Shown here: in pieces, positions 9,267 to 32,064 of the stretch
Numbering within the stretch: the stretch's first letter is position 1
How the letters are laid out: each line of letters opens with the position of its first letter
DNA from: Streptomyces hiroshimensis
GTDB taxonomy: Bacteria > Actinomycetota > Actinomycetes > Streptomycetales > Streptomycetaceae
Direction: 5' to 3'
Length of the DNA stretch: 64,000 nt
NCBI RefSeq assembly: GCF_014650335.1
Contig: NZ_BMUT01000001.1
Coordinates: 673,037-737,036, forward strand
Translations under genes and position numbers: made by a program
The notes under the pieces: model-generated
Told to the model about the DNA's origin: nothing
The model's database searches: none
The model's input: only the letters and a program-made list of their open reading frames with translations

Positions 9267-9917
9267 GTGCCCGACCACGAGACGACCGACGCCGACGCCC
9301 GCCCTCTCGCCGAGGGGCCGCGGGTCGCCATCCGGGCCGTCACGCCGCAGGACGGCCCGGAGTTCACCCGTCTGGTGCGGGCCAGCGCCGGCCTGCACCA
9401 CCCGTGGCTGTCCATGCCCGCCACCGAGGAGCGCTTCGCGCAGTACGCCGCCCGGCTCGACGGCGAGCAGCGGGCGGGCTTCCTCGTGTGCCTGCGGGAC
9501 TCCGGCCGCCCGGCGGGCTTCGTCAACATCAACAACATCGTGCGCGGCGCCTTCCAGTGCGGCGCGCTCGGCTACGGCGCGTTCGCGCCGTCCGCCGGCC
9601 GCGGCCTGATGAGCGAGGGCCTCGGGCTCGTCCTGCGCCACGCCTTCGGCCCGCTGGGCCTGCACCGCCTGGAGGCGAACATCCAGCCGGGCAACACGGC
9701 GTCGCTCGCGCTGGTGAAGCGGCACGGCTTCCGGCTGGAGGGCTTCTCCCCGGAGTTCCTCTTCATCGGCGGGGCGTGGCGCGACCACGAACGCTGGGCG
9801 ATCACCGCGGACATGCTGCCGGACCACCGGGAAGCGGACATGCTGCCGGACCACCGGGAAGCGGACATGCTGCCGGACCACCGGGAAGCGGACATGCTGC
9901 CGGACCACCGGGAATGA
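9267..9917 (+). CDS. GNAT acetyltransferase (RimJ/RimL type) with repeat-encoded tail
   Basis: Protein of 216 aa. Residues about 10-178 form a GNAT domain of the ribosomal-protein N-acetyltransferase type (GFVNINNI, LGYGAFAPSAGRGLMSEG, LHRLEANIQPGNTASLALVKRHGF). It would acetylate an N-terminal or amino group with acetyl-CoA; the substrate is unknown. The last 36 residues are four identical copies of ADMLPDHRE, encoded by a 27-bp tandem repeat that ends at the stop codon. The tail is outside the usual family length and probably not catalytic. The GTG start is chosen because it directly precedes the domain; it lies 45 bp after the amine-oxidase-like gene and may be cotranscribed with it. Confidence 0.88.
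   Translation: MPDHETTDADARPLAEGPRVAIRAVTPQDGPEFTRLVRASAGLHHPWLSMPATEERFAQYAARLDGEQRAGFLVCLRDSGRPAGFVNINNIVRGAFQCGALGYGAFAPSAGRGLMSEGLGLVLRHAFGPLGLHRLEANIQPGNTASLALVKRHGFRLEGFSPEFLFIGGAWRDHERWAITADMLPDHREADMLPDHREADMLPDHREADMLPDHRE
9807..9914 (+). repeat. 27-bp x 4 tandem repeat at the 3' end of a GNAT gene
   Basis: Four identical head-to-tail copies (9807-9833, 9834-9860, 9861-9887, 9888-9914), each encoding ADMLPDHRE. A decayed partial copy (GACCGGACCACCAGGG) continues past the stop. Perfect identity between copies implies recent expansion or ongoing homogenisation. Confidence 0.97.
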
Positions 9918-29422: not shown

Positions 29423-31249
29423 TTACCCGCGGTACAGCGCATCGACCTCGCGCGCGTACGCCACCTCGATGGCCTTCCGCCGGAGCTTCAGCGACGGGGT
29501 CAGCAGGCCGTCCTCCTCGGTGAACCGGGCGCTGAGGATCCGGAACGTCCGGATGGACTCGGCCTGCGAGACGAGCGTGTTCGCGGCCACCACGGCCCGC
29601 CGGATCTCGGCCTCCAGATCCGCGTCGCGCAGCAGCCCCACGGGGCCCGCCGGCTCCTTGCCGTGCGTGTGCAGCCAGTGCGCGACCGCCTCCTCGTCCA
29701 GCGTCACCAGGGCGGCCACGTACGGGCGGTCGTTGCCCACCACGACACAGTGGGCGACGAGCGGGTGCGCCCGTACGCGCTCCTCCAGCACCACCGGCGA
29801 CAGGCTCTTGCCGCCCGAGGTCACCAGGATCTCCTTCTTCCGCCCGGTGATCGTCAGATAGCCGTCCCCGTCCAGCCGTCCCAGGTCGCCGGTCGCGAAC
29901 CAGCCCTGCTGCAGCACCGCGCCCGTCGCCTTCGCATCGCCCAGGTAGCCGGCGAAGACCTGGCCGCCGCGCAGCCAGACCTCGCCGTCCCCGGCGATGC
30001 GCACGGTCGTGCCGGGGACCGGCTGCCCGACCGTGCCGCAGCGGGGCCGCTCGGGCGGGTTGGCGGTCGCGGCGCCGGTGGTCTCCGTCAGCCCGTACCC
30101 CTCCAGGACCGTCACGCCCGCGCCCGCGAAGAACAGCCCCAGCCGCCGGTCCATCGCCGAGCCGCCCGACATCGCGTGCCGCACCCGGCCGCCCAGCGCC
30201 TCCCGCACCTTGGCGTAGACGAGCCGGTCGAAGACCTGGTGCTGGATCCGCAGCGCGGCCCCGGGCCCCGCGCCCGTGCCGAACGCCCGGTGCTCCAGCG
30301 CCTCCGCGTACCGCACCGCGACGTCGACGGCCCGCTCGAACGGTGCGGCCCGGCCCTCGGTCTCCGCCGCGCGCCGGGCCAGCGCGAAGATCTTCTCCAG
30401 GACGTAGGGGACGGCGAGGACGAACGTCGGCCGGAACGCCCGCAGGTCCGGCAGGAGCGCGGCGGCGGCCAGCTGCGGCTGGTGGCCGAGCTTGACCCTC
30501 CCGCGCACCGCCGCGACCTGCACCATCCGCCCGAACACATGGGCCAGCGGCAGGAACAGCAGCGTCGCCGCCTCGTCGCCCGGGCGGGAGCGGAAGACCT
30601 GCTCGTAGCGTCTGACGACGTTGTCGGCCTCGGCCATGAAGTTGGCGTGGGTCAGCACGCAGCCCTTGGGGCGGCCCGTGGTGCCGGAGGTGTAGACGAC
30701 GGTGGCCGGCGTCGCCGGGGTGAGCGCCATCCGGTGCCGCTGCACCACCTCGTCGCCGATCCGGGCCCCGGCGGCGCTCAGCGCCTCGACGGCCCCCGCG
30801 TCCAGCTGCCACAGCCGGTTCAGCCCCGGCAGCCGGTCGACGACGGAGCCGACCGTCATCGCGTGGTCCCCGTGCTCGACGACGCAGGCCGTCACGCCCG
30901 CGTCGCGCAGGATCCAGCCGACCTGCTCGGGGGAGGCCGTGGGGTACAGCGGTACGGGCTGGGCGCCGATCGACCACAGCGCGAAGTCGAAGAGCGTCCA
31001 CTCGTAGCGCGTACGGGACATGACGGCGACCCGGTCGCCGAACCGCACCCCTTCGGCGAGCAGGCCTTTGGCCAAGGCCAGTACCTCGTCCCGGAACGCG
31101 GCGGCCGTCACGTCCCGCCAGCAGCCGTCCGGCCCCTTGCGGCCGAAGGCCGCCTGCCCGGGGTCCTCCGCGGCCCGGTCGAAGACGACATCCGCCAGAC
31201 CTCCGGCGGGGGGCGCCGTCACCAGCGGCGGAACGGTGATCTCGCGCAA
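29423..31249 (-). CDS. Long-chain acyl-CoA synthetase (AMP-forming)
   Basis: Protein of 608 aa. ATP/AMP motif YTSGTTGRPKG, then LFLPLAHVFGRMVQ, MSGGSAMDRRLGLFF, VLEGYGLTETTGA, TGDLGRLDGDGYLTITGRKKEILVTSGGK and the C-terminal LKLRRKAIEVAY. It activates a fatty acid to acyl-AMP and then acyl-CoA. I choose a TTG start at 31249 (giving M-R-E-I-T-V-P-P-L) because AAGGAG lies seven bases upstream and the family begins like this; in-frame ATGs at 31276 and 31267 precede that ribosome site. Confidence 0.93.
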   Translation of the reverse strand: MREITVPPLVTAPPAGGLADVVFDRAAEDPGQAAFGRKGPDGCWRDVTAAAFRDEVLALAKGLLAEGVRFGDRVAVMSRTRYEWTLFDFALWSIGAQPVPLYPTASPEQVGWILRDAGVTACVVEHGDHAMTVGSVVDRLPGLNRLWQLDAGAVEALSAAGARIGDEVVQRHRMALTPATPATVVYTSGTTGRPKGCVLTHANFMAEADNVVRRYEQVFRSRPGDEAATLLFLPLAHVFGRMVQVAAVRGRVKLGHQPQLAAAALLPDLRAFRPTFVLAVPYVLEKIFALARRAAETEGRAAPFERAVDVAVRYAEALEHRAFGTGAGPGAALRIQHQVFDRLVYAKVREALGGRVRHAMSGGSAMDRRLGLFFAGAGVTVLEGYGLTETTGAATANPPERPRCGTVGQPVPGTTVRIAGDGEVWLRGGQVFAGYLGDAKATGAVLQQGWFATGDLGRLDGDGYLTITGRKKEILVTSGGKSLSPVVLEERVRAHPLVAHCVVVGNDRPYVAALVTLDEEAVAHWLHTHGKEPAGPVGLLRDADLEAEIRRAVVAANTLVSQAESIRTFRILSARFTEEDGLLTPSLKLRRKAIEVAYAREVDALYRG

Positions 31250-32064
31250 CGGGCAGCTCCTTGTCATGCTCCGCACAGCGCGATGCCTCTACCCGGCCCT
31301 CGGGGTCCTCAACCTCCTCGAAAGGGTGGCCTGTTGCAGCGGCTACCCGAGCGCGCCCGGATTCCGGACCCGCCCGAACTCCGGACGCCCGCAAAGCGCG
31401 GAGGGGCACGGGCGGTCGGGCATGCGGGGGCGCTCCGTACGGCCCCGCCGGCCACCTCCACGGCGGCAGCCGGAGCGCCGCTCCGGCTATCCCCTTCCGC
31501 CGCGACGGCGAGCAACCCCCTGCGACGTATCCGGCGGTGCCGAACGGCCTATCCGGCGGCGCCGAGACCACCTGCCGCGCGCCCTCGCGGCGGCGGCGCG
31601 GAGGGGCCTCGCGTCGCCGAGGCGCCTCGCGGGCGGCGTGCGGAGGCCCGTACGGCACCGCTGGTCGCCTCCGCGGGAGTAGCGGGAGTGCCGCTCCGGC
31701 CAAGTCCCTTCCGCCGCGACGGCGAGCAACCCCCTGCGACGTATCCGGCGGTGCCGAACGACCTATCCGGCGGTGCGGAGGCCACCCGCCGCGCGCCTTC
31801 GCGGCCGCCGTGCGCGACGGTCTCGCGTCGCCGAGGCGCCTTGTGGCGGCGTGCGGAGGCCCGTACGGCACCGCTGGTCGCCTCCGCGGGAGTAGCGGGA
31901 GTGCCGCTCCGGCCAAGTCCCTTCCGCCGCGACGGCGAGCAACCCCCTGCGACGTATCCGGCGGTGCCGAACGACCTGTCCGGCGGTGCGGAGGCCACCC
32001 TCCGCGCGCCCCCGCGGACCGCCGCCCGGAGCGGCCCCGCCCCTCCCGACCCCCGCGCGGAGCG
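31250..32064. other. 815-bp gene-free region holding the repeat array
   Basis: Apart from the array at 31435-32012, the first 185 bp should hold the promoter of the acyl-CoA ligase gene and the last 50 bp follow the LysR gene. No protein-coding gene with recognisable composition is seen. Confidence 0.6.
31435..32012. repeat. 213-bp tandem repeat array (about 2.7 copies)
   Basis: The block starting CCGTACGG recurs at 31435, 31648 and 31861, exactly 213 bp apart. Copies two and three are nearly identical over most of their length; copy one is more diverged; copy three is truncated near 32012. Each unit carries two closely spaced TATCCGGCGGTGC-type sub-repeats and a CTTCCGCCGCGACGGCGAGC segment. 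It fills most of the 815-bp gap between the acyl-CoA ligase start and the LysR stop. All six frames give only Ala/Arg/Pro/Gly-rich shadow peptides, so I regard it as non-coding. Confidence 0.93.

Follow-up and report, generated by a model that had tools for sequence, protein, structure and literature searches.

The tandem array between an acyl-CoA ligase gene and a LysR gene in the window (the whole stretch of 64,000 nucleotides analysed here) arose, at a probability of roughly 80%, when half-elements of a dispersed REP/REPIN/BIME-like repeat family, palindromic and non-coding, were amplified locally in tandem. The array is the half-element form of the repeat, with three intact forward cores and decayed reverse arms, and is probably an immobile form. 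The features of the locus are given below, with bit scores from R1, a sequence-only model of the core built from 50 rows, including one duplicate.

29423..31276, minus strand: acyl-CoA ligase (AMP-binding) gene; PF00501 and PF23562, ORF list, codon-model gene caller
31435..32040, no strand: tandem array, period 213-214 bp, 2.8 copies; TRF and repeat search
31440..31486, minus strand: decayed reverse arm 5' of core 1; 10.3 bits, E 8e-4 for 901 bases, filters off
31495..31543, plus strand: intact core (half-element) of unit 1; 56.3 bits
31545..31565, plus strand: second copy of the core's 3' block, unit 1; 9.3 bits
31652..31682, minus strand: decayed reverse arm 5' of core 2; 13.7 bits
31709..31757, plus strand: intact core of unit 2; 56.3 bits
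31759..31776, plus strand: second copy of the core's 3' block, unit 2; 10.2 bits
31865..31895, minus strand: decayed reverse arm 5' of core 3; 13.7 bits
31922..31970, plus strand: intact core of unit 3; 56.3 bits
31972..31989, plus strand: second copy of the core's 3' block, unit 3; 10.6 bits
32065..32922, minus strand: LysR regulator gene; PF00126 and PF03466, ORF list, codon-model gene caller

The first-pass annotation had reported an exact 213-bp period over about 2.7 copies, the second and third nearly identical. TRF recovered the array at 31435-32040 with a period of 213, 2.8 copies and 89% match, and its score of 956 was the highest among the 39 rows for the window. The exact period held for the step from unit 2 to unit 3 (213 bp) but not for that from unit 1 to unit 2 (214 bp), and the remark that the unit length is a multiple of three held and failed for the same steps. 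Units 2 and 3 were indeed nearly identical, differing at 4 of 173 positions, and unit 1 matched unit 2 in 183 of 215 aligned columns. The annotated sub-repeat TATCCGGCGGTGC proved to be the 3' block of the core, repeated just downstream of each core in all three units. Pfam confirmed both flanking genes as annotated. The gap between them was 788 bp, and the array was located behind the LysR stop codon, which lies 25 bp from the array edge and 95 bp from the nearest core; the ligase gene, for which a start at 31222 is also possible, is the next minus-strand gene after the array. Long ORFs cross the array, as everywhere in high-GC DNA, yet our own codon-model caller left 31277-32064 without genes, in agreement with the earlier view that no frame looks coding. 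A coding array was ruled out, in that the spacing of units 2-3 is a multiple of three but that of units 1-2 is 214, and no gene was predicted. Elsewhere in the window, a perfect 27-bp repeat at 9807-9914 (4.0 copies, 100% match) was noted at the end of a predicted gene (9267-9917, plus strand), where it encodes ADMLPDHRE four times just before the stop.

The host genome (G000, 7.76 Mb) is a draft assembly of 37 contigs, which gives some ground for suspecting that the tandem array was created during assembly. However, the array is interior to a 1.28-Mb contig, units 2 and 3 differ at the four positions given above and unit 1 differs more, and the independent assembly of S. klenkii KCTC 29202 (G076) carries a tandem array of the same core in the same place. 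An assembly artefact is thus very improbable.

When the raw array was searched against the host genome, 73 matches were obtained at E<=1e-3, the majority falling in a single stretch of about 50 bp; the family is thus far beyond chance. An iterated profile collected 115 cores from 40 loci of this genome, the R1 search found at least 150 cores, all at E<=1e-8, and with further loci added, 77 loci contained 235 cores. The earlier proposal of a local amplification of a dispersed repeat family was therefore borne out, both by these copies and by array sizes that varied at the same site between species. The core measures 47 bp, and alignment of 226 non-redundant cores showed conservation from about -14 to +54, with sharp edges and values near background outside. 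The core holds two strongly conserved blocks, TCCGCCGCRACGGCG-AGCARCC and TCCGGCGGTGCCG, separated by a variable stretch, and the former contains a 5-bp stem (CGCCG/CGGCG) around a 3-nt loop. Elsewhere in the genome the usual form was an inverted doublet with a loop of 18-22 nt, making a hairpin of 112-113 bp; clusters mixing doublets and singlets were the other arrangement. Of the adjacent core pairs in the host loci, 60 were convergent, with a median loop of 19 (quartiles 18-22), 58 were divergent, with a spacer of 8-360 nt (median 70.5), and 30 were direct. Similarity was 86% between same-orientation cores within one array and 70% between cores from different loci, indicating local duplication and homogenisation. 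A second dispersed motif, approximately GAAACGGTGAAAGGGTGGGACCGGGG, was first spotted by eye at seven host loci (L018, L028, L029, L035, L039, L040, and L047). With four mismatches allowed, it occurred 11 times in the 77 host loci and never in shuffled loci, 10 of the 11 occurrences lying within 60 bp of a core, and it looks like a companion repeat beside the cores.

The divergent pairs raise the alternative of a classical MITE, in which the cores would be outward-facing terminal inverted repeats moved by the cut-and-paste action of a DDE transposase. Many clusters do start with a reverse core and end with a forward one (L011, L018, L035, and L039, for example), in keeping with the 58 divergent neighbour pairs. 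However, the divergent spacer is broad and the convergent loop narrow, so that the hairpin doublet looks like the unit. Moreover, at five loci where clusters neighbour one another, the 10 proteins scanned proved to be ordinary enzymes, transporters and regulators, with neither a transposase nor an autonomous element among them, and no target duplication was seen at site A, where divergence left the borders unreadable. On this evidence a MITE is unlikely.

Structure prediction, which the first-pass annotation had suggested for the array, gave different outcomes for the two forms. All five convergent doublets tested folded with z scores of -4.9 to -10 below shuffles, whereas the window half-unit (z about -0.2 on both strands) had no structure beyond its composition, and the whole window unit reached z -0.36 as RNA and -0.93 as DNA. 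The hairpins had no sense-strand preference, the sense strand being more stable in 17 of 33 tandem contexts, and RNAalifold found almost no covariation. A known RNA family was ruled out, since no Rfam match exceeded the gathering score and the two matches obtained were far below it (22.4 vs 41.2 and 19.1 vs 45). The two arms of a doublet agreed at 8.84 of 21 variable positions compared to 9.94 expected (38 loci; none of 5000 reshuffles as low), with the strongest disagreement at one position (3% agreement vs 27%). Compensatory change between the arms was ruled out, in that they agree less than chance. Selection against perfect palindromes, or the existence of two arm types, would explain the disagreement; heterodimers are reported for some REP families in the available text of PMC3733652.

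The gene context for all core counts was taken from our own codon-model caller. Convergent gaps accounted for 35 of the 81 core-bearing gaps, tandem gaps for 43 and divergent gaps for 3, compared to 12 convergent, 91 tandem and 52 divergent among core-free gaps of at least 60 bp from the same loci and the window (Fisher test, convergent excess p 5e-10, divergent deficit p 3e-8). In 38 of the 43 tandem gaps the cores were nearer the 3' end of the upstream gene (median 73 vs 203 bp). Sixteen of the 235 cores overlapped predicted genes, and Pfam supported three genes with in-frame cores:

L038:866-3775: Ser/Thr kinase with PQQ domain; cores in the linker between domains
L033:1441-2775: CbiM-PDGLE gene; cores in the linker between domains
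L201:1667-3496: NuoC; cores in a C-terminal extension

The CbiM-PDGLE orthologues contained three in-frame cores in the host, six in S. roseoverticillatus NRRL B-3500 (G257; this genome and G076 were assigned to their named strains by the same matches at the same coordinates), two in S. klenkii, and two in a record named Streptosporangium nondiastaticum TBG75A20 (G409). The orthologues in G319, G018, and G052 had a short linker and no cores. By its in-frame copies, the repeat lengthens proteins.

We further compared core-bearing sites among relatives. At the window site S. klenkii carried a tandem array of the same core with a 226-bp unit, and S. roseoverticillatus and G409 had two other ORFs and no core. 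No full core was present at any of 80 named LysR orthologue loci, although at the window site the contig of S. klenkii breaks off within the array. Read by eye, array-free LysR-ligase stretches (L057, L089, L138 of G257) contained two other ORFs. A second site, site A, was filled in the host and S. roseoverticillatus and empty in G409, G410, and G319, its insertion borders being unreadable because the intergenic DNA is too diverged between species. Seven of 20 S. roseoverticillatus and S. klenkii loci matched a fetched core-bearing host site, and core counts differed in five of the seven; orthologous arrays contained 2 vs 5 (L214 and L031), 2 vs 4 (L215 and L194) and 1 vs 4 cores (L212 and L024). 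Since sites are common to these species, the spread of the family could be old.

Copy number did not track relatedness smoothly. Four related genomes had at least 150 cores each, and G235 and G018 had 10 and 9; G319, the relative that comes next after these four, at 84% identity in the ligase gene (a comparison over 392 genomes in which 79 had no score), had no match at E<=1e-6 and serves as a natural control. Further genomes had 49 (G291), 42 (G008), 34 (G779), 33 (G074), and 26 cores (G100). The search of other Streptomyces advised by the first-pass annotation was thus positive: at E<=1e-6, 89 of 392 genomes had at least one core, 8 had at least 15, and 303 had none. In a class-wide survey of 394 genomes, cores were found in six, which all belong to the genus of the window. 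The Streptosporangium nondiastaticum TBG75A20 record (L089) had at least 150 cores and a LysR 91% identical to that of the window; as cores were seen class-wide only in the window's genus, and given this LysR identity, the record probably carries the wrong genus name.

Beyond the window's species group, 19 of 30 fetched loci contained a single core. Among 20 single-core loci from low-copy genomes, picked by model match to the core, four syntenic sites recurred across species (S1 in four genomes, S2 in three, S3 and S4 in two each). In all nine pairs compared, identity was 79-98% in the core and 12-71% across the remainder of the intergenic stretch, a difference that overstates the constraint on the core because the loci were chosen by it. 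These single cores, together with the strong 3'-end bias, speak for a cis-element of the host under selection (either an RNA signal at 3' ends or a binding site for a host protein), of which doublets and arrays would be by-products of recombination and gene conversion, with no transposition. Against such an element stand the upward bias in core identity, the empty sites in close relatives, and the genomes without a core (303 of 392), which indicate that no general function needs it. Moreover, the genes beside single cores in low-copy genomes were unrelated (rplT/SpoU methylase, GntR/DUF5925 AAA, FecCD/ABC, and ABC/NYN), with no common function seen. A cis-element without transposition is therefore a possible, if doubtful, account. 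The half-core may already have had a cis role before multiplying. In a composite history, Streptomyces would have a mobile REPIN-type family of its own that depends on an enzyme unrelated to RAYT. Its doublets would descend from an old single half-core, retained at a few sites where it acts as a 3'-end signal, and would have multiplied repeatedly in separate lineages, namely the group of S. roseoverticillatus and S. klenkii and, to a weaker degree, G291, G008, G779, G074, and G100. The doublet arms would then have been kept from a perfect match, as would be expected if pairing had to be imperfect or the arms had to be of two types. We consider this composite history somewhat unlikely.

For the preferred reading, amplification of half-elements of a REP-like family, the helper enzyme was sought among Y1/RAYT transposases (PF01797). 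The host genome had no match, with a control positive in 5 of 14, and RAYT was therefore ruled out as a helper for the window genome. Among 15 genomes, 10 had no match (G000, G257, G076, G008, G074, G100, G051, and G345 among them), G291, G389, G390, and G235 had matches, and G409 had one weak match of 48 aa. Neither a transposase, a target-site duplication nor a transposition intermediate was found for the core family. We infer that the doublet is a present or past non-autonomous mobile unit, which would have been dispersed in trans by an enzyme other than Y1/RAYT. New copies would survive mostly where they are least harmful, at gene 3' ends and in flexible protein linkers. Once two direct copies are present, unequal recombination or replication slippage could expand, shrink and homogenise arrays, as in the window. 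With its reverse arms decayed, the window array would most likely be a relic that no longer moves and changes only in length. The first-pass annotation had also suggested a binding array for a nucleoid or DNA-bending protein; nothing in our results favours such a reading over an RNA or transposition role.

If REP-like architecture, places and dynamics arise without a host RAYT, either another enzyme makes REPINs or much of REP behaviour is transposase-free. A tractable comparison is offered by the closely related genomes of the window, S. roseoverticillatus and S. klenkii, in which sites are occupied, empty or resized, together with a copy-free relative. In practical terms, core arrays break draft assemblies, as at the S. 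klenkii contig end, and lengthen protein linkers.

In many bacteria few repeats are commoner than REP elements, for which RAYT transposases are given as the explanation. ERIC and Correia elements, imperfect palindromes of about 100-150 bp between genes in other phyla, resemble the present family by description only. No description of the core family was found in the literature searched; subscription papers were outside the search, so that a prior description is possible. Literal core strings occurred only in six papers unrelated by title, and the main text of PMC3733652 and PMC2817692 contains neither 'Streptomyces' nor 'Actinobacteria'. By analogy the family would work like a REPIN, membership of a described REP family being beyond the evidence. 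In the available text of PMC3733652, PMC3116915, and PMC2817692, 3'-end placement, dimers, clusters and intragenic copies are described for REPs, and most cores were likewise extragenic, behind genes and flanked by convergent or co-directional ORFs.

The differences concern tags, stems and enzymes. Compared to REPINs and GTAG REPs as far as the sources cover them, the half-unit here is longer (47-68 bp, with two short palindromes), the GTAG tag was found in none of 234 cores in three edge stretches (CTAC in at most 8), and the RAYT gene is absent from the window genome, S. roseoverticillatus, and S. klenkii. REPINs are reported with a clear gap in conservation between doublets and singlets, whereas in the core family the nominal difference in similarity was small, with 0.712 for doublet arms (39 loci) vs 0.686 for isolated singlets (19). 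Compared to the CGTC REPs in the available text of PMC3733652, CGTC at the palindrome edge is absent from most core copies (at most 30 of 234 cores had CGTC or GACG in an edge stretch), the stem is the 5-bp one with its 3-nt loop instead of 8-9 bp with A/T at the first positions, and arrays are common where clusters are rare in that family. BIMEs are described for proteobacterial REPs in the available text of PMC2817692, which also reports binding of IHF, gyrase and DNA polymerase I.

The likenesses concern architecture, place and copy number. Hairpin doublets with a preferred spacing, as in REPINs, were found in the family (60 convergent pairs, median 19) but not in the window array. With REPINs and GTAG REPs, as described in the available text of PMC3116915, PMC2817692, and PMC3733652, the family shares short palindromic half-units, inverted hairpin doublets, tandem clusters including flanks, a high copy number varying among related species, and an extragenic location with 3'-end bias. 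With CGTC REPs it shares the predominance of inverted dimers, the 3'-end and intragenic copies, and the lack of a known dedicated transposase, so that the absence of a transposase has precedent in what the available text of PMC3733652 reports. With BIMEs, as the accessible part of PMC2817692 describes them, it shares a mosaic of alternating half-units, two kinds of spacer, and an array length varying among relatives.
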